The notes beneath the pieces were generated by a model. The model made no database searches and was not told where the DNA came from. It saw only the letters and a list, made by a program, of their open reading frames with translations. From assembly GCF_000194625.1 (NCBI RefSeq), contig NC_015320.1:372001-436000 (forward strand): DNA of 64,000 bases, read 5' to 3'. Below are positions 14,846 through 30,619 of the stretch, one piece after another. This stretch comes from Archaeoglobus veneficus SNP6 (GTDB lineage Archaea; Halobacteriota; Archaeoglobi; Archaeoglobales; Archaeoglobaceae). The position numbers and the translations under genes are program-made. Position 1 is the stretch's first letter; the number at the start of each line of letters is the position of its first letter.

Positions 14846-15967
14846 TTACTCCCCGCCTCCTGCAGGAATCTCTCCAACAACGTTGTCAACGAAGAAGTTC
14901 ATTGAAAGCAGCTCTTCGTCGCTCATCACTTCGCCTTCAGCCTTCACGAGGTTACCATTCTGGTCATATATTGGGCCAACGAATGGGTACTGTTCTGGCA
15001 CCTCGTGCTTGAGGTACTTCTCCTTCTCTTCCATCACTTTCTTCTGCACGTCTTCAGGCACTATCGGATTGAATGGCGCAATGTCCACTACACCCTTGTC
15101 AATACCCCACCATATCTGCTCGCTCTTCCATGTGCCCTTCATTACGTTTTCAATGACGTAAGCGTAGATTACGCTCCAGTTCCATACCGCTGCTGTGAGG
15201 TGAGCCTTGGGGGCAAACTCGTACATGTCGCTGTGGTATCCAATGGAGTATACTCCCTTCTCCTGGGCTGCCTGCTGTGGAGCTGGAGAGTCCTGGTGCT
15301 GGGCTATAACGTCACATCCTTCCTCGATAAGGCTCAGTGCAGCTTCTTTCTCCTTTGCGGGGTCATACCATGTGCCAGTCCATACAACGTAAACCTTCGC
15401 ATCCGGGTTTACGGCCTTGACACCCAGAGCGAATGCGTTGATACCTCTGATGACCTCAGGAATCGGGTGGGCAGCAACGTATCCGATCTTGTTGGTCTTG
15501 GTCATCTCTCCGGCAACGATACCTGTCAGATAGCGAGCCTGATACATTCTTCCGAAGTAGGTACCAACGTTTTCAGCCGTCTTGTAACCACTGCAGTGCA
15601 TGAACACGATGTTCGGGAAGTCCTTGGCAACGGTTATGGTTGGATCCATGAATCCGAAGGATGTCGTGAAAATTACATCGTAACCCTGCTCTGCATATTC
15701 TCTGATAACTCTCTCTGCATCAGCATCGCTGACGGATTCAGAATAGGCTGTCTGTACGCCGTAAACCTTCTCGATGTACTGTCTTCCTTGGTCGTGCATG
15801 TAGCTCCAGCCCGCATCACCCACTGGACTTACGTAAACGAATGCAACCTTGAGCTTCTTCTCCTCTGCTGGCGTAATGGTCGGCTTGGGCGTTGCCTTCT
15901 CCTCCTGTGCACACCCGGCAATGAGCAGCGCGGCCATCAGTACTGCTACTATTAATAGTCTCCTCAT
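14846..15967 (-). CDS. BMP-family (PnrA/Med-like) nucleoside-binding lipoprotein of an ABC importer
   Basis: 373 residues with a lipoprotein signal (LLIVAVLMAALLIAGC) and a two-lobed periplasmic-binding fold. The BMP-family start is KKLKVAFVYVSPVGDAGWSY, followed by GYDVIFTTSFGFMDP and FMHCSGYKTAENVGTYFGR. The family binds purine nucleosides (PnrA, NupN). It is the last gene of a minus-strand cluster with two permeases and a double ABC ATPase, but 86 bases separate it from the permease and it has its own TATA-like box, which would allow high expression. Purine nucleosides are the likely substrate. Confidence 0.92.
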   Translation of the reverse strand: MRRLLIVAVLMAALLIAGCAQEEKATPKPTITPAEEKKLKVAFVYVSPVGDAGWSYMHDQGRQYIEKVYGVQTAYSESVSDADAERVIREYAEQGYDVIFTTSFGFMDPTITVAKDFPNIVFMHCSGYKTAENVGTYFGRMYQARYLTGIVAGEMTKTNKIGYVAAHPIPEVIRGINAFALGVKAVNPDAKVYVVWTGTWYDPAKEKEAALSLIEEGCDVIAQHQDSPAPQQAAQEKGVYSIGYHSDMYEFAPKAHLTAAVWNWSVIYAYVIENVMKGTWKSEQIWWGIDKGVVDIAPFNPIVPEDVQKKVMEEKEKYLKHEVPEQYPFVGPIYDQNGNLVKAEGEVMSDEELLSMNFFVDNVVGEIPAGGGE

Positions 15968-16009
15968 GTGGAAGGCAACAACGTAGGTACAACATAAGTC
16001 TTTTCATCC

Positions 16010-16026
16010 AAAGTATTATAAATCAA
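16010..16026 (-). promoter_or_regulatory. TATA-like box for the nucleoside-binding protein gene
   Basis: On the minus strand the sequence reads TTTATAATAC, about 50 bases before the start codon at 15967, in the 86-base gap after the permease gene. It fits an internal promoter for the binding protein. Confidence 0.5.
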
Positions 16027-16053
16027 AATTAATGAAAAAATTCAACTGGAAAT

Positions 16054-16977
16054 TCAATACCTTTGCTCCCTTATGTACGGCTTACCGAGTGCCGACGGAG
16101 CACCAAACTTTTCTTTCTTTCTCATCACGCTGAATAGAAGCACGAGAATTGTTACAACGTACGGAATCATCTTCAGTAAATGATAGGACACACCAACACC
16201 GGCAGCCTGAAGCTTGAACGACAGCACATCGAGTCCGCCAAAGAGATAAGCTCCAAGTATGGCCCTCTGGGGCATCCATCCACTGAATATCACTAAGGCC
16301 AAGCAGATCCAGCCTCTACCTGCGGTCATGCCATCTGTCCATAGTTTTGCGTACGCGAGGCTTAAATGCGCTCCAGCGATGCCAACAAGGAAGCCCCCAA
16401 TCAGCACGCTTGCATACCTCAGCTTTTCGACGCTTATTCCAAGGGTGTCAGCCGCTTCAGGACTCTCTCCAACGGCTATTATCTCCATACCGTGCCTCGT
16501 TCTGAAAAGGAAGAACCACGTTAGCGGTACGAGGAGCATTGCAGCATAAACGAGAGGATCATGACTGAAAAACGCCTCACCAACAAAGGGAAGCTCAGAG
16601 AGGTATGGAATGTTCACGGGTTGAATGTATTCAGCGACCTGCCCGATGTAGTTCCTGCCGAGAAATCCCGTTAAGCCAATACCGAGCAGAACGAGCATCA
16701 GGCCGGTGACCGATTGGTCGGCTTTCAGCGTTATTGAAAAGAAGGCGTGGATTGAAGCCATCGCCATGCCCGCAAGCCCGGCAGCGAGGACACCCAGCCA
16801 GGGGTTACCTGTCAGCAGGCTTACGGCAAATCCCGTCATTGCGCCCGTAATCATAATTCCTTCGAGACCGAGATTCAGCACGCCACTTCTTTCAGTTATT
16901 ATTTCACCGAGCGTCGCGAAAAGCAATGGCGTGCCGGCCCTTATTGATGCGGCTATGAGCGAGGCTATGAAATCCAA
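16054..16977 (-). CDS. Nucleoside-type ABC transporter permease (NupC/YufQ-like)
   Basis: 307 residues, polytopic, of the branched BPD_transp_2 family. The N-terminal segment AGTPLLFATLGEIITERSGVLNLGLEGIMI is diagnostic for the second permease of Nup/Yuf nucleoside importers, as is the later GESPEAADTLGISVEKLRY. The start is a TTG preceded by AGGAGGGG, three bases after the first permease's stop. It forms the channel together with the preceding gene product. Confidence 0.92.
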   Translation of the reverse strand: MDFIASLIAASIRAGTPLLFATLGEIITERSGVLNLGLEGIMITGAMTGFAVSLLTGNPWLGVLAAGLAGMAMASIHAFFSITLKADQSVTGLMLVLLGIGLTGFLGRNYIGQVAEYIQPVNIPYLSELPFVGEAFFSHDPLVYAAMLLVPLTWFFLFRTRHGMEIIAVGESPEAADTLGISVEKLRYASVLIGGFLVGIAGAHLSLAYAKLWTDGMTAGRGWICLALVIFSGWMPQRAILGAYLFGGLDVLSFKLQAAGVGVSYHLLKMIPYVVTILVLLFSVMRKKEKFGAPSALGKPYIREQRY

Positions 16978-16979
16978 AT

Positions 16980-18026
16980 TTATCCCCTCCTTATCGTATA
17001 CTTCGTGAAGAATTCACCGCCAATTATAAAGAGGACAATCAAAGCCTGAAAGACGTAGACGATTGAAACAGGAATAGAATACGTGGTCTGCAGCGCTGAA
17101 CCGCCCACGTACAGGAATCCAAACAGAAACGCTGAGAGGATTACTGCAAGTGGGTTGCCCTTGGCAAGCAAGGCAACGGGAATACCTGCATATCCATAGC
17201 CCGGCGACAGTCCGCTCCTGAGTCTCATGTGTATCCCGCCCACTTCTATCATGCCCGCAAGTCCCGCAACAGCTCCACCTATCAGCATTGTATAGACTAT
17301 AATCTTCTTCCTGTTTATTCCTGCATACTCCGCAGCTTTCGGGTTTGCGCCAACAACCTTGACGGCAAACCCGAAACCCGTTTTCCTGACCACGTAGTAG
17401 AGCAGGACCGCAATTGCTATGGCTATGAACACTCCTGCATGAAACCTCGTTCCAAAAAATCTCGGAAGTATAGCAAAATCCGGGAAGATGTCCGAGTATG
17501 GGAAGTTGTACACTTCTTTGCCCCTCATAGGGCCGTAAACGAGATAATCGACCCAGTAAATTGCTACATAGTTCAGGAGAAGCGTCGAGATTATCTCGTT
17601 CAGCTCAAACTTGGCTTTAAGGACACCGGGAAGGGAGGCCCACACCAAACCCATGAAGGAGGCGGCGAAAGCCATTGCAGGCAGCACAAGTGGTGGGGGA
17701 AGTGAAACGTAAAGGGCAATGAAGCTTGCGGCGAAAGCCCCCATGTAAAGCTGTCCTTCAGCACCAATGTTCCACAAACCGGCTCTAAGAGGGATTGCTA
17801 CTGCAAGTCCAGTTAGTATAATTGGGGCAGTTTTGACAAAAAGCTCCGTCAGTCCGAACTTTGAGCCGAAGGACCGGGAAAACATCGTCATGTATGCATC
17901 AACGGGATTCACGCCAACAGTCAGCAGCAGCAAACCGACGAAAAGCAGAGAAACTGCTATTGAGATGAATGGTACGGCATACACGAGCCATCCTGGGGTT
18001 TCGTGTCTTCTTTCTATCCTTATCAC
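16980..18026 (-). CDS. Nucleoside-type ABC transporter permease (NupB/YufP-like)
   Basis: 348 residues with about nine membrane helices. GLAVAIPLRAGLWNIGAEGQLYMGAF and GANPKAAEYAGINRKKI are signatures of the first permease in Nup/Yuf systems. The GTG start overlaps the stop of the ATPase gene by four bases (GTGA), and the second permease follows two bases after its stop, so all three are translationally coupled. Confidence 0.92.
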   Translation of the reverse strand: MIRIERRHETPGWLVYAVPFISIAVSLLFVGLLLLTVGVNPVDAYMTMFSRSFGSKFGLTELFVKTAPIILTGLAVAIPLRAGLWNIGAEGQLYMGAFAASFIALYVSLPPPLVLPAMAFAASFMGLVWASLPGVLKAKFELNEIISTLLLNYVAIYWVDYLVYGPMRGKEVYNFPYSDIFPDFAILPRFFGTRFHAGVFIAIAIAVLLYYVVRKTGFGFAVKVVGANPKAAEYAGINRKKIIVYTMLIGGAVAGLAGMIEVGGIHMRLRSGLSPGYGYAGIPVALLAKGNPLAVILSAFLFGFLYVGGSALQTTYSIPVSIVYVFQALIVLFIIGGEFFTKYTIRRG

Positions 18027-19567
18027 GTTGCTACGCCTCCGGGTGTGATTTCAAGACCTTCAAGAGTTCCTCCGGCCATCAGGTATCCAATTTCCTCTAT
18101 GTCTGCCTTCTCTCGCGGGATAATCCCCTTTAGTTCTCCCTCGTAAATAACGGCGATTGTGTCACTGAGCTGGAGGATCTCATCCAGATCCTCAGATATC
18201 AAAAGGATGGCGCTGCCACTTTTTGCTGCATCGATTAATCTCTGCCTGACGTATTCGATTCCAGCTATGTCGAGCCCCCTCGAGGGCTGGGAAGCGATTA
18301 AAAGCTTGGGGTTTCTCGAAAGCTCCCTTGCAAGGATTAGGCGCTGGATGTTGCCTCCAGAAAGTGTACTTGCGGGCACATCCAGCGAGGGTGTTTTGAT
18401 TGCGAACTCCTCTACGAGTTTCTTTGCCCGCTCCTCCATAGCCTTAAAATCGAGCGTAAATCCCCTTCTGAAGTTCCTGAAGTCTCTGAGCATGAGGTTC
18501 TCAGCAACGCTCAGTGATGGGGCAAGCCCCACACCAATCCTGTCTTCGGGGATGCACGCAATACCGCTCGCCGTGTAACCTTCAACGCTGAGGTTAGTGA
18601 TGTCTCTGCCGTTCAGAATGATTTTGCCCTTCCTGGGCTTTCTCAGTCCAGCTATAGCTTCTTCAAGCTCTTTCTGACCGTTTCCTGAAACTCCAGCTAT
18701 TCCGAGAATCTCTCCCTTTCTTATGCTGAAGGAGATGCCTTTTAGAGCCATCAACCCTCTATCGTCCTCCACCCACAGGTCTTCCACCTTCAGAACCTCT
18801 TCGCCCAGCTCCACTTTTGGCTTCCTGATCTCCATGACGACTTCTCTACCGACCATCATTCTGGCAAGTTCTCTCTCGTCTGTCTTGGAGGTTTCAATCG
18901 TTCCAACGTTTTTGCCCCTCCTTAACACTGTAATTCTGTCAGTAACACTCAGCGCCTCCTTGAGTTTGTGGGTTATGAAAATAACCGTCAGACCCTTATC
19001 TGTCATGGCTTTAAGGGCTGAGAAAAGGTTTTTGACTTCCTGAGGGGTTAAAACGGCTGTCGGTTCGTCAAGAATTAGCAGCTTTACGTTCCTGAACAGG
19101 GCCTTGAGAATTTCAACCCTTTGCTCCTCTCCCACGCTGAGGTTTGCAACAACTTCGTCAGCGTCAACACCAATACCGTACGTCCTGGAAAGCTCGTTAA
19201 TCTTTTCTTTGACCCATCCTTCATCAATCAGAGGATCTTTTGGCGTCCTGTAGCCGAGCACAATGTTCTGAAGGACGTTCATCCTTCGCACGAGCATGAA
19301 GTGCTGGTGAACCATCCCTATTCCAGCTTCTATGGCATCCTTTGGAGACTTGAACCTCACCTTTTTTCCTTCGAATATTATCTCCCCTTCGTCGGGCTGG
19401 TAGAGGCCGTAGAGCACGTTCATTAGAGTCGTTTTGCCCGCTCCATTCTCTCCAAGCAGGCCGTGGATTTCACCCCTGTAAACTGTAAGGTTGACACCGT
19501 CGTTGGCAACAACTCCCGGAAATCTCTTGACGATTCCTCGCATTTCGAGGAGGACTTCCCTGCTCAA
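18023..19567 (-). CDS. Nucleoside-type ABC transporter ATPase with two ABC domains (NupA/YufO-like)
   Basis: 514 residues made of two nucleotide-binding domains. The first has GENGAGKTT, VHQHFMLV, LSVGEEQRVEIL, LLILDEPTAVL and FITHKL. The second (from about residue 255) has GVSGNGQKELEEAI in place of a classical Walker A and SGGNIQRLILARE as signature, as is usual for the degenerate second half of sugar/nucleoside ATPases. It begins with TTG two bases after the phosphoribosyltransferase stop and powers the two downstream permeases. Confidence 0.94.
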   Translation of the reverse strand: MSREVLLEMRGIVKRFPGVVANDGVNLTVYRGEIHGLLGENGAGKTTLMNVLYGLYQPDEGEIIFEGKKVRFKSPKDAIEAGIGMVHQHFMLVRRMNVLQNIVLGYRTPKDPLIDEGWVKEKINELSRTYGIGVDADEVVANLSVGEEQRVEILKALFRNVKLLILDEPTAVLTPQEVKNLFSALKAMTDKGLTVIFITHKLKEALSVTDRITVLRRGKNVGTIETSKTDERELARMMVGREVVMEIRKPKVELGEEVLKVEDLWVEDDRGLMALKGISFSIRKGEILGIAGVSGNGQKELEEAIAGLRKPRKGKIILNGRDITNLSVEGYTASGIACIPEDRIGVGLAPSLSVAENLMLRDFRNFRRGFTLDFKAMEERAKKLVEEFAIKTPSLDVPASTLSGGNIQRLILARELSRNPKLLIASQPSRGLDIAGIEYVRQRLIDAAKSGSAILLISEDLDEILQLSDTIAVIYEGELKGIIPREKADIEEIGYLMAGGTLEGLEITPGGVAT

Positions 19568-19569
19568 GG

Positions 19570-20169
19570 CTAACCCCTCGTCTCGCTATAGATTTCAAGC
19601 GCTCTGTTGATAATTTCTGGATCAACATCGAGATTGAAGTTGATTTTGAGATGTTCCCTAATTTCTTCAACGTTTGATGCGGGTATTTTGGGCAGAAATC
19701 CAAGAATCGTTTCAAAAACGCCCCAAGGGTATACAATCCATATCCACTCGTCGAGAATTTCTGCTGCAAAATCTGGCCTGAACGAGGAGGTATTTTTGTG
19801 ATGAAGCACAGCAGTCTTGGTTTCATTAGCTCCAAGCTCCTTTACGTGCTGAACCACAACATCCATGGTCTTGCCCGTGTCCGTAACGTCATCCACAACG
19901 AGCACGTTCATACCAGAGATGTCAGCGTTCAGAGGTTGTGTAATCACTGCATCTTCTCTTTTTTCCGCAACGTCCCAGTGCTCCGCCTTTACGCTGTAGA
20001 GGTTTCTAATGTCAAGAGTATCGCTCAAAATCCTCGCCGGCACCCATCCTCCCCTGCCAACGGCTACAATCGCTTCTGGCGAGAATCCTGATTTCCTTAT
20101 GTCCCCAGCGAGCTTGAGACACAGCCTGTAAACGTGATCCCATGTGAGCAGCACTGTGGTTATACCCAT
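19570..20169 (-). CDS. Purine phosphoribosyltransferase
   Basis: 199 residues of type I PRTase fold. The PRPP-binding signature VLVVDDVTDTGKT lies near residue 90; VAVGRGGWVPARIL is the PPi loop near residue 37. It resembles archaeal xanthine/hypoxanthine-guanine phosphoribosyltransferases (note IWIVYPWGVFE near residue 145). It would convert a salvaged base with PRPP to a nucleotide. As first gene of the nucleoside importer cluster it links uptake to salvage; base specificity cannot be read from the sequence. Confidence 0.88.
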   Translation of the reverse strand: MGITTVLLTWDHVYRLCLKLAGDIRKSGFSPEAIVAVGRGGWVPARILSDTLDIRNLYSVKAEHWDVAEKREDAVITQPLNADISGMNVLVVDDVTDTGKTMDVVVQHVKELGANETKTAVLHHKNTSSFRPDFAAEILDEWIWIVYPWGVFETILGFLPKIPASNVEEIREHLKINFNLDVDPEIINRALEIYSETRG

Positions 20170-26929: not shown

Positions 26930-27793
26930 ATGTGGGTACGCCTCGGCAAGTACGATCATGATGATGCAATGGAGATCGTTTCTCATCTGAGAAAGGCGAA
27001 GATCAGGTGTGATGTAAAGCCGTTTATCGACTGGAACCTGAAGGAGAGGTATTACTTAAAGGGCAAATTCAGCGAATTAAAGAATTACGGCTTTAAGGAA
27101 GTTGAGAAGTGGGAAAAGTATATTGAAATACTCAGGAAAATACTCACTAAACCTCTCCCAATCAAGGAATTTGAGGAAAGGTTTCTCTCTGAGGTTAATC
27201 CTGAAAGGCATGCTCTCGTAAAGAAGTGCATCGAGCTTGTGGGGAGCGAGGTAGACCTGAGTAGGCTCAGAGAAGCAGGTATAGATCCTGCCGAGTTTGC
27301 GGACGGTCTCTGGGAGGAGCGCAACCTCATACTCGAGATATACGATATGCTCGAGATGAACGGAATAGAGATCGGGGAGTTCGTTGAGGGCAAGCTGCCC
27401 GAAGATCCGGAGCTTATAATTGAGCTTGAGGAGTACAAAGATGGGGCGAGAACACTGTACGAGCTTGAACTGTTCAAGGCTTGGGAGGTGTACGTGGATG
27501 CTGTAAGCGTCGCAGGTAACGTAAACTTCGACGAGGACTTTAAGATTCAGTACTGGGATGAGTTTATTCTTCTTGCCTCCATTGCGAGTATGATCGAGAG
27601 CTTTATGTCCTTCTTGTCTGAGAACCCTAAGACTGATATCGATGCACTCAAAGACCTCGAAAAGGGGTTTATAGAGGGGGAAGCTATTGATGTAGCAATT
27701 GAGGCGGAGGGAATTACTGAAGACATTATAAAGGCTCTCGAGGAAGTGGGTATGGTAAGGAGGAGAGGTAGAGTGGTGTTATGGCAGGATTGA
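26930..27793 (+). CDS. Hypothetical acidic protein, first gene of a three-gene cassette
   Basis: 287 residues, not recognised. The N-terminal 45 residues (MWVRLGKYDHDDAMEIVSHL, CDVKPFIDW) resemble a small alpha/beta domain as in regulators that read 'move the data' modules; the rest is helical and acidic, with repeated Glu-rich helices (KLPEDPELIIELEEYKDGAR). There is no signal or membrane segment. The 3' end overlaps the deoxyribosyltransferase-like gene by 13 bases, implying shared expression. The AT-rich upstream and its lack of a known family suggest an accessory gene. Confidence 0.6.
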   Translation: MWVRLGKYDHDDAMEIVSHLRKAKIRCDVKPFIDWNLKERYYLKGKFSELKNYGFKEVEKWEKYIEILRKILTKPLPIKEFEERFLSEVNPERHALVKKCIELVGSEVDLSRLREAGIDPAEFADGLWEERNLILEIYDMLEMNGIEIGEFVEGKLPEDPELIIELEEYKDGARTLYELELFKAWEVYVDAVSVAGNVNFDEDFKIQYWDEFILLASIASMIESFMSFLSENPKTDIDALKDLEKGFIEGEAIDVAIEAEGITEDIIKALEEVGMVRRRGRVVLWQD

Positions 27794-28215
27794 AGGTATT
27801 TCTCGCAGCCCCCTTCTTCTGTGAGGCGGAGAGGGAGTTCAATATAAAGGTTGCCGAGTTTCTCAGAGATAACGGGTTTGAGGTATGGATGGCTCAGGAA
27901 AACCCGTTCATATCTGACGGAAGCGAGGAAGAGAAGAGGAGAATTTTTGAGATGGATCTATCTGCGTTGAAGGGCTGCGACGCGGTTGTCGCAGTCCTCG
28001 ACGGCGAGTGCATAGATTCCGGGACAGCCTTCGAGCTCGGCTACGCGTACGCAATGGGAAAGCCCATTATAGGGATAAAGACGGATTACAGGACATTCTC
28101 ATCTATAGAGGGGCTAAATCTCATGATTGAAGTTGCCGTAAGGCTGATAAAGGCTTCAACGTTTGAAGAGCTGAAAGGGAGGCTGTTGGAGGCCTTAAGA
28201 GATGTTAAGCCTTGA
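27781..28215 (+). CDS. Nucleoside 2-deoxyribosyltransferase-like protein
   Basis: 144 residues. LKVFLAAPFFCEAEREFNIKVAEFLRDNG opens the Rossmann-like fold. DLSALKGCDAVVAVLDGECIDSGTAFELGYAYAMGKPIIGIKTD carries the family's Asp and the nucleophilic Glu in the FELGYA motif. These enzymes cleave or exchange the N-glycosidic bond of deoxynucleosides or deoxynucleotides; the fold is also used for NAD or nucleotide hydrolysis in defence proteins. It overlaps both neighbours (13 and 14 bases), so it is part of one cassette with the unknown and ArcS-like genes. Confidence 0.85.
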   Translation: MAGLKVFLAAPFFCEAEREFNIKVAEFLRDNGFEVWMAQENPFISDGSEEEKRRIFEMDLSALKGCDAVVAVLDGECIDSGTAFELGYAYAMGKPIIGIKTDYRTFSSIEGLNLMIEVAVRLIKASTFEELKGRLLEALRDVKP

Positions 28216-28846
28216 ACAAGCGTTAAAACTCAATCCCGGATTGAATCCAAAGCTTTTCCTTCCTTCGCCAGAAGACGTTCTCAGAATTCTGGAGGAGGAG
28301 CCGGTTAAGAGCTGGCTGGAGTTCATTGCCAATGAGCATGTGGCTCCGAAAAGGGAGGTACTTTTGCTCGTTCCCTGCACGGCTAAAAAGCCCTATGATC
28401 CCCCTCGCGATGAACTGCATTGCAGACTTCTTGAGCTTGAGAAAACGTATGACCTTTATCTTGTTTCCGTTTCCGAGCCTCTCGCTTTAGAGCCGAGGGA
28501 ATACTGGGACTTCCGCTGGAGGGGGCACAATCTGATCTATGATGCACCATTCTTTCCGTGGATTGAGCGCTATGGCTACAAATGGAGTGATGAGATAGCT
28601 GAAAAGGTGTGGAGTAGGCTTGCTGATGTGGCAAAAGCATGGCAGAAGAGAAACAACCACTTTGAACGAGTTATTTGCTTTGCAACACCCAACTCCGGTT
28701 ACAGAAGGATAGTGGAGAAGATGCATGTTGATGTATTTGTTCCGGATTTTGAACCAGACATTGACGTGAGCTACGAAGAAAATACGGATTTGATTTACAC
28801 TCATCCTGACGTCTGGAGGAGTTTGCTGGATGCGCTGACCTTATGA
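28202..28846 (+). CDS. ArcS/DUF5591-like protein
   Basis: 214 residues. VLLLVPCTAKKPYDPPRDELHCRLLELE and LVSVSEPLALEPREYWDF, then NLIYDAPFFPWI, match the core domain of archaeosine synthase (ArcS) with its PC.AKKPY signature; the TGT-like and PUA parts of full ArcS are absent. ArcS converts preQ0 in tRNA to archaeosine. This short stand-alone form may act on another deazapurine or nucleobase. Together with the deoxyribosyltransferase-like gene it points to nucleobase chemistry (inference). Confidence 0.7.
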   Translation: MLSLEQALKLNPGLNPKLFLPSPEDVLRILEEEPVKSWLEFIANEHVAPKREVLLLVPCTAKKPYDPPRDELHCRLLELEKTYDLYLVSVSEPLALEPREYWDFRWRGHNLIYDAPFFPWIERYGYKWSDEIAEKVWSRLADVAKAWQKRNNHFERVICFATPNSGYRRIVEKMHVDVFVPDFEPDIDVSYEENTDLIYTHPDVWRSLLDALTL

Positions 28847-28981: not shown

Positions 28982-30619
28982 ATGCGCCTCATACCGGTTC
29001 TCGTACTGATTCTTGCACTCTTAATGGCCGCATGTGCTGAAAAGCCAGAACCTGTTGGGAAGGCGGAAACAGTAAAACCAACTGTGAAGCCCATTGAAAG
29101 GGAAACACTTTATGAAAAAGCCGAGGAAAGAACGCTCTCGACTGCAACCACCTCTTTATTCGCAGCATCGGGCAACTGCGAGTTCTGCCACAATGGATTG
29201 GTGGACAGAGATGGAAACGATGTATCCATAGTCAATGACTGGAGCCAAACCATGATGTCAAACAGCGCAAGGGACGCACTCTGGCAGGCGAAGGTGAGCT
29301 CGGAGGTGAGCAGGAATCCACATCTGAGAGAAGTGATTGAGGAGAAGTGTGCAGCATGCCATATGCCCATGGCGAAGGTTCAGGCAAAGGTTGACGGGAA
29401 AACAATTGCTGTTCTGGACGGATTTCTTAAGGATGGCGAGCTGCACGAAATTGCGATGGATGGTGTGTCGTGCACACTCTGCCACCAGATTCAGGATGTG
29501 AATTTTGGTAAGGAAGAGAGTTTCAGCGGTGGCTATGTTATAGACACGGAAACACCAAAGCCCGACAGAACGATATTTGGCCCCTTTAAAGAGCCTGCAA
29601 TGGCGCTGATGATGAAGAACCACGTTGGCTACACACCTGAATTTGGCAGCCATGTCGAGGAGTCGGAGCTGTGTGCTGTGTGTCATACGCTCTATACGCC
29701 TTACCTCGACTCTAACGGTAGTGTTGCCGGTGTTTTCCCCGAACAGACTGCTTACCTGGAGCTGCTTCACAGCAGCGTGAATAAGAGCTGTCAGGATTGT
29801 CATATGCCCAAAACTGATGGTGTCAGGATATCTTCGCGGCCCATGAATCCAAATATGCTTCCCGAAAGGTCACCATTTGGCAAACACCACTTTGCTGGAG
29901 GCAACGTACCGATGCTTCAAGCTTTAGGCTGCTACACTGGAGCTGAAAGAACGATGGAGCAGTTGAGAACTGCCGCCACTCTTACCATAGAGAGCGCAGC
30001 TAAAAAGGGAGACGAGATAGAAGTTATTGTGAAGGTTGAAAACAAAGCCGGGCACAAGTTCCCGACTGGTTTTCCATCGAGAAGGGCATGGATACATTTG
30101 AAGGTTGTTGATAAAGATGGAAACGTGGTATTCGAGTCCGGCAAACCCGACAGCGATGGCCGCATTTCTGGATGCGATTCGGACGAAGGGAAGGGTTACG
30201 AGCAGCATTACGACGTAATAACGAGGAGCGATGAAGTGGAGGTGTACGAATCGGTGATGGTTGATACGGAAGGGCAGGTTACCTACACGCTGCTGAAAGG
30301 AGCGAGGTACATCAAAGACAACAGACTGCTACCCTATGGCTTCGACAAGACAACGGCAAGCGAGGATATAGCAGTTCACGGCAAGGCTGCGGAAGACTTG
30401 AACTTTGTTAGAGGGGGTGACGAGGTTAAATACATCGTGAAAACATCGGGCAGTGGCCCGTACAGGGTTTATGCAGAACTGCTCTACCAGCCGGCTTCAT
30501 ATCCCTTTATCGCTGATCTGCAGAAAGACGATACGGAGTATGTGGAGAAGTTTTTAGCAGATTTTGCCAGCGTTGAAAAGACAATAGCAGTATCGTCGGC
30601 CGAAGCTGTCGTAGAATAA
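28982..30619 (+). CDS. Pentaheme c-type cytochrome, lipoprotein
   Basis: 545 residues with a lipoprotein signal (VLILALLMAAC). Five CxxCH heme sites are present: CEFCH (residue 66), CAACH, CTLCH, CAVCH and CQDCH, within the first 290 residues. The C-terminal part is a beta domain beginning near VIVKVENKAGHKFPTGFPSRRAWIHLKV, a stretch shared by many multiheme cytochromes of iron and sulfur reducers. It is probably an extracytoplasmic electron carrier or terminal reductase component. No partner gene is adjacent; T-rich sequence follows the stop. Confidence 0.88.
   Translation: MRLIPVLVLILALLMAACAEKPEPVGKAETVKPTVKPIERETLYEKAEERTLSTATTSLFAASGNCEFCHNGLVDRDGNDVSIVNDWSQTMMSNSARDALWQAKVSSEVSRNPHLREVIEEKCAACHMPMAKVQAKVDGKTIAVLDGFLKDGELHEIAMDGVSCTLCHQIQDVNFGKEESFSGGYVIDTETPKPDRTIFGPFKEPAMALMMKNHVGYTPEFGSHVEESELCAVCHTLYTPYLDSNGSVAGVFPEQTAYLELLHSSVNKSCQDCHMPKTDGVRISSRPMNPNMLPERSPFGKHHFAGGNVPMLQALGCYTGAERTMEQLRTAATLTIESAAKKGDEIEVIVKVENKAGHKFPTGFPSRRAWIHLKVVDKDGNVVFESGKPDSDGRISGCDSDEGKGYEQHYDVITRSDEVEVYESVMVDTEGQVTYTLLKGARYIKDNRLLPYGFDKTTASEDIAVHGKAAEDLNFVRGGDEVKYIVKTSGSGPYRVYAELLYQPASYPFIADLQKDDTEYVEKFLADFASVEKTIAVSSAEAVVE

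Follow-up and report, generated by a model that had tools for sequence, protein, structure and literature searches.

The conserved unit at the locus analysed here is a pair of adjacent genes, one encoding, to judge from its sequence, the N-ribosyltransferase AvNRT and the other a stand-alone paralogue of the core domain of archaeosine synthase (ArcS); the trio in which the pair stands in Archaeoglobus veneficus is confined to one genus. We tentatively favour a reading, falling somewhat short of probable, in which the two products work as a two-enzyme module on a free ribonucleoside of the guanine type, with a 7-deazaguanosine as the likeliest candidate. The window, i.e. the whole stretch of 64,000 nucleotides that was analysed, corresponds to positions 372001-436000 of the closed 1,901,943-bp A. 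veneficus genome, and its features, in window coordinates, are as follows:

26930..27793, + strand: gene 1, 287 aa, without a known family
27781..27793, + strand: 13-bp overlap of genes 1 and 2
27781..28215, + strand: gene 2, 144 aa, N-ribosyltransferase AvNRT of the PF05014 fold (UniProt F2KPY9 / AEA46496.1)
27799-27801, + strand: F7 of gene 2, Phe in place of Tyr
28033-28035, + strand: E85 of gene 2, catalytic Glu
28202..28215, + strand: 14-bp overlap of genes 2 and 3
28202..28846, + strand: gene 3, 214 aa, stand-alone ArcS-core (DUF5591) paralogue
28373..28396, + strand: PCTAKKPY (residues 58-65 of gene 3), corresponding to PC-x3-KPY of the ArcS signature and unchanged in all 9 stand-alone and all 36 canonical proteins

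The three open reading frames share 13 and 14 bases, just as an earlier note on this DNA had read them, and the frames are kept in two congeneric species as well. Short gene overlaps are commonplace in archaeal operons, and alone they are no proof of joint function. The three-gene order is also present in G018 and G019, the remaining two genomes of g1 (the genus of the window), where gene 1 is the fastest diverging of the three (62-64% identity to its orthologues versus 84-85% for gene 2 and 89-92% for gene 3). A survey of 57 Archaeoglobales genomes revealed gene 2 and the stand-alone gene 3 together in five (3/3 genomes of genus g1 and 2/6 of genus g12), only one of them in none, and neither in 52. 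The two genes are adjacent and co-directional in all five genomes carrying both, and adjacent again in contigs L067 and L068, apparently of the same species as G044 and G040. The Fisher test of this co-occurrence gave 2.4e-07, a value that is overstated, as the five genomes represent two clades, so that the pattern effectively reflects only few events of shared gain or loss. Of the co-occurrence that the earlier note had proposed for all three genes, that of the pair was recovered elsewhere, whereas that of the trio was seen only within the genus; a three-gene cassette does not hold, gene 1 standing in other genera apart from the pair and usually beside kptA.

In both g12 loci the pair is followed, after a gap of ~550 bp, by a gene for a radical-SAM protein (L067 7221-8048, L068 2450-3277), which could be part of the pathway there. 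Downstream of the cassette in the window lies an intact multihaem cytochrome gene (28982-30619), of which G019 appears to keep a truncated remnant (L003 2155-2658).

The product of gene 1, which had been called unrecognisable, indeed matched no family in Pfam, NCBIfam, PADLOC or PHROG. Its homologues (23-64% identity) occur in genera without genes 2 and 3, namely g2, g13 and, more distantly, g3 and g11, and gene 1 is absent from g12, so that it is a lineage gene with a history of its own, which joined the pair in one genus. As far as searched, it seems to be specific to Archaeoglobaceae. The gene order in g2 and g13 is aminotransferase (AAT), gene 1, kptA and a small Zn-ribbon-like protein, with a DUF531 gene inserted between the gene-1 homologue and kptA in g2. 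In g13, gene 1 directly abuts or overlaps kptA, and the order of aminotransferase, gene-1 homologue, kptA and Zn-ribbon-like protein is kept in the Archaeoglobaceae loci L035-L047, L106, L107 and L110. The AlphaFold model of gene 1 (pLDDT 90.8, pTM 0.59) gave only a weak hint, a winged-helix match of ~60 residues in the C-terminal segment (TMt 0.72), and the protein is probably accessory (a regulator) or a passenger. Its role as an essential third part was rejected, since gene 1 is found in other genera that have no such pair, and g12 has the pair but no gene 1.

Gene 2 matches the PF05014 profile (E 8.5e-25), and its residues F7, P11, P42, 43-FISDGSEEEK, D79, E85 and N113-L-M115 are those numbered for the published enzyme (PMC7308715), with which the start codon is consistent as well. 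This residue-by-residue agreement identifies gene 2 as AvNRT of A. veneficus, UniProt F2KPY9. D79, E85 and N113-L-M115 are present in 5/5 gene 2 orthologues. According to the same source, AvNRT cleaves guanosine, frees guanine and hands the ribose to another base, gives no transfer from deoxyguanosine, and shows good activity only with acceptor purines bearing a 2-amino group, the role of Glu85 as nucleophile being derived from homology and modelling (PMC7308715). Hydrolysis of ordinary nucleosides is very low in that account (0.002-0.02 IU/mg; PMC7308715), a level suggesting that the real substrate is missing from those assayed. The name "deoxyribosyltransferase-like" given in the earlier note is therefore supported as to the family and disfavoured as to the sugar. 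Phe7 has been linked to ribose acceptance (PMC7308715), and Phe was found at this position in 5/5 transferases paired with gene 3, against Tyr in 16/16 unpaired archaeal PF05014 relatives inspected, so that the ribose-type signature goes with the partnership. At position 7, the PF05014 homologues inspected in G156 and G181 carry Tyr instead of Phe. A protein tree of PF05014 did not settle whether the five paired transferases form one clade or several.

The ribose exchange of AvNRT, together with its failure to use deoxyguanosine as a donor, also argues against the suggestion that the genes make a modified nucleobase for DNA or serve nucleotide-based defence, which we regard as very improbable. 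Viral DNA does use 7-deazaguanines, some phages carry ArcS homologues, and such homologues can take part in the DpdA-type 7-deazaguanine DNA modification of phages and bacteria (PMC6884629). Here, however, the transferase is ribose-specific and DpdA is lacking: a PF01702 search of the genome returned two matches only, arcTGT and the TGT-like part of ArcS, and thus no DNA transglycosylase of the TGT family beyond these two. The PADLOC models gave no match at E <= 1 for any of the three proteins, PADLOC and PHROGs yielded nothing decisive, and the viral contigs, phages and plasmids searched contained no relatives. Around the cassette lie mostly housekeeping genes (rpS6e, an IF2-like GTPase, a topoisomerase).

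Gene 3 matches PF17884/DUF5591 over the cut-off (E 1.1e-07), which confirms its reading as a stand-alone ArcS core domain. DUF5591 was matched in 9/9 stand-alone family members and is the only domain of the 214-aa product, which lacks the TGT-like N-terminal and the C-terminal PUA domains; the NCBIfam equivalog NF040592 was not reached (27.2 bits, cut-off 440). Comparison of the stand-alone family with the canonical ArcS core by hhalign gave Prob 98.2 and E 4.2e-14, and the closest solved sequence of gene 3 is AF0587 (2q07). The AlphaFold model of gene 3 has a pLDDT of 90.4; Foldseek against the PDB returned no significant match for either the gene 1 or the gene 3 model, so the folds were not used as evidence, and the relation of gene 3 to ArcS rests on sequence profiles.

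The core domain with PC-x3-KPY is common to gene 3 and archaeosine synthase ArcS (TgtA2; NF040592 / PF17884), whereas the remaining features set the two apart. Full-length canonical ArcS comprises about 515-650 aa (the canonical frames compared measured 464-653 aa, the shortest ones being cut by contig ends), and gene 3 carries a family-specific inserted segment, EYWDFRW. The full ArcS signature, which we take to be PC-x3-KPY-x2-S-x2-H, is present in 36/36 canonical ArcS and is incomplete in the stand-alone proteins. In the alignment with these 36 sequences the signature Ser is found in every canonical protein and in 0/9 stand-alone ones (Pro in eight, Ala in one), and the position of the His is occupied by H in five, F in three and Y in one. 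Hence, of the ArcS catalytic residues on which the earlier note had made its assignment depend, the PC-x3-KPY part is kept, while the Ser is lost throughout and conservation does not extend to the His. In place of the canonical YP..YD..TG stretch there is a family-specific N-[LM]-[IV]-Y-D-x-P-F-F-P segment, and given these three changes gene 3 may catalyse something other than lysine transfer.

The stand-alone family is a close-knit one, its members sharing 53-92% identity with the window protein, and apparently represents an undescribed subfamily of the ArcS core. It occurs in Archaeoglobaceae, in G168, G156 and G181, which belong to two other families of the phylum, and, in another phylum, in the two genomes L069 (a Njordarchaeota bin) and G395. 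Since canonical arcTGT and ArcS are also encoded in the A. veneficus genome, gene 3 is a paralogue. Canonical ArcS is present in every gene 3-bearing genome where it was sought, except G018 (76% complete); G395, which the DUF5591 search left out, has a second TGT-family match of the kind given by ArcS. The idea that gene 3 stands in for canonical ArcS was rejected, both being present, and this co-presence implies that gene 3 does something else.

A role in tRNA, with gene 3 as an extra ArcS-type archaeosine factor (for a second amino acid or another tRNA position, or as an adaptor) and the transferase as a side branch taking away or supplying 7-deazaguanine nucleosides, seems quite unlikely. 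It would agree with the neighbours of the family, which in distantly related archaea adjoins a divergently oriented arcTGT in L082 (PF01702 E 1.3e-88) and a convergent TGT-like gene of divergent sequence in L069, whose closest solved protein is arcTGT 1iq8 (E 7e-07), and with those of the gene 1 relatives, which adjoin kptA, an RNA 2'-phosphotransferase, and in g2 also the DUF531 gene. However, gene 3 has neither a PUA nor a TGT-like domain, canonical ArcS is already present beside it, and the transferase is a free-nucleoside enzyme. The TGT-like protein of L069 (6732-7673, - strand; 313 aa) stays just under the PF01702 cut-off, contains a CNCPACK motif and is possibly an unusual 7-deazaguanine transglycosylase. 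Gene 3 has a methyltransferase as its neighbour in L105 and no clear partner beside it in L083/L084.

It is established that gene 2 exchanges ribose between ordinary purines, that the pair is genetically linked and that gene 3 is homologous to the ArcS core. In the two-enzyme module that we tentatively prefer, the natural partner base of gene 2 would be preQ0 or another 7-deazaguanine, and the product a free 7-deazaguanosine. A 7-deazapurine is devoid of N7, the atom protonated on cleavage, and for this reason ribosyl transfer to a 7-deazaguanine may be nearly one-way; preQ0, being a 2-aminopurine analogue, is the kind of acceptor that gene 2 prefers. As an ArcS core stripped of the tRNA-binding parts, gene 3 would then alter the 7-substituent of that nucleoside, either by joining an amino acid or an amine to its nitrile group or through some related chemistry, the expected product of gene 2, a preQ0 ribonucleoside, being the smallest substrate of the ArcS core, and gene 1 would be a regulator or passenger of the module. 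Canonical ArcS attaches lysine to the preQ0 of tRNA; it also acts slowly on the preQ0 nucleoside and well on its 5'-monophosphate, but not on the preQ0 base (PMC11298593). Acceptance of the nucleoside and not of the base fits an order of transferase followed by ArcS-like enzyme, with no RNA needed. The same steps reversed would amount to salvage of 7-deazaguanosines from tRNA breakdown, and the data fit either direction. A 7-deazaguanine as the natural substrate, modification of the nucleoside by gene 3 and the direction of the reaction are what we infer.

The module is favoured by the identity of AvNRT, its ribo- and 2-aminopurine specificity, the co-occurrence of the pair, Phe7, the arcTGT/TGT-like neighbours and the presence of gene 3 beside canonical ArcS, with the QueC-like cluster described below as an independent parallel. 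It is disfavoured by the absence of the signature Ser from gene 3, by the genomes in which gene 3 has no linked transferase (G168, G156/G181, G393 and G395) and by the weak action of canonical ArcS on the unphosphorylated nucleoside, whose authors think that the enzyme rarely uses nucleosides or nucleotides in cells (PMC11298593). The open-licence literature yielded neither tests of gene 2 with any 7-deazaguanine nor assays of gene 3. The link to 7-deazaguanine chemistry that had been drawn earlier is nevertheless supported as the leading hypothesis. Its more specific form, an archaeal pathway of free modified 7-deazaguanosine outside RNA and DNA, in which base exchange at the nucleoside level (a small-molecule counterpart of tRNA-guanine transglycosylase) and then the ArcS-core enzyme would yield an archaeosine-like free nucleoside or nucleotide, seems unlikely.

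Ordinary purine salvage, which has genuine support but seems somewhat unlikely as well, would make AvNRT a guanosine nucleosidase/transglycosylase freeing guanine for a phosphoribosyltransferase, and gene 3 a binding or regulatory protein or a nucleoside-modifying step unrelated to 7-deazaguanine. AvNRT does free about half of the guanine from guanosine even with little acceptor product (PMC7308715), and a purine phosphoribosyltransferase and an AtzT-like ABC importer are encoded within the window, ~7 kb off and on the other strand:

14846-20169, - strand: purine uptake and salvage genes (phosphoribosyltransferase, ABC ATPase, two permeases, Bmp-family binding protein)
19570-20169, - strand: phosphoribosyltransferase, closest solved relative purine PRTase 4trb

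The Bmp-family binding protein of this importer is closest to AtzT (6pi5, E 6e-106), which binds guanine (PMC6834077). These genes, however, lie outside the operon of the pair and were not seen at the g12 loci, and together with their strand and distance this led us to leave them out as members of the system. Furthermore, the hydrolysis rates of AvNRT are very low, and salvage leaves unexplained both the strict tie of the ribosyltransferase to an ArcS-core protein and the arcTGT/TGT-like neighbours of gene 3.

The gene 2 enzyme is known already, whereas the gene 3 subfamily and the pairing are apparently new: no description of either was found in the open-licence literature, so that the absence of a described system of such composition, as stated in the earlier note, holds within the literature searched. 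AvNRT has been handled as a biocatalyst, no mention of its operon or an ArcS-like partner was found in the sections consulted, and its discoverers remark that the enzyme poses questions on the biological significance of its family (PMC7308715). AvNRT has so far been studied as an industrial catalyst without a known natural job, and its strict link to a stripped-down archaeosine synthase offers a concrete and cheap hypothesis, namely 7-deazaguanine substrates. A ribosyl-exchange enzyme with an ArcS-like partner suggests, short of proof, a route making or recycling a 7-deazaguanine nucleoside outside RNA and DNA. If true, archaeal 7-deazaguanine chemistry would extend beyond tRNA and viral DNA to a free-nucleoside branch, in which a new subfamily of ArcS-core enzymes would be placed.

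With nucleoside 2'-deoxyribosyltransferases (PF05014; 6evs, 7m5h, 8pqq) gene 2 shares the family and the catalytic Glu85, Asp79 and Asn113-Leu-Met, and differs from them in Phe7 for Tyr7, ribose for deoxyribose and the 2-aminopurine preference (PMC7308715). A PF05014 domain together with a relative of a 7-deazaguanine enzyme also characterizes QueC-like Cluster 4, reported in 2026, in which a PfkB-PF05014 protein is found in ~89% of neighbourhoods (PMC13329287). That cluster, however, is bacterial (mostly Proteobacteria), has a QueC fold rather than ArcS, and has PF05014 joined to a PfkB kinase domain (PMC13329287). The analogy suggests that PF05014 enzymes have repeatedly become associated with relatives of 7-deazaguanine enzymes.

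Many archaeal PF05014 proteins (L134, L136, L139, L140, L143 and others) are C-terminal parts of longer frames of ~280-440 aa, the upstream domain of which is, by eye, DUF523/2-thiouracil desulfurase-like.
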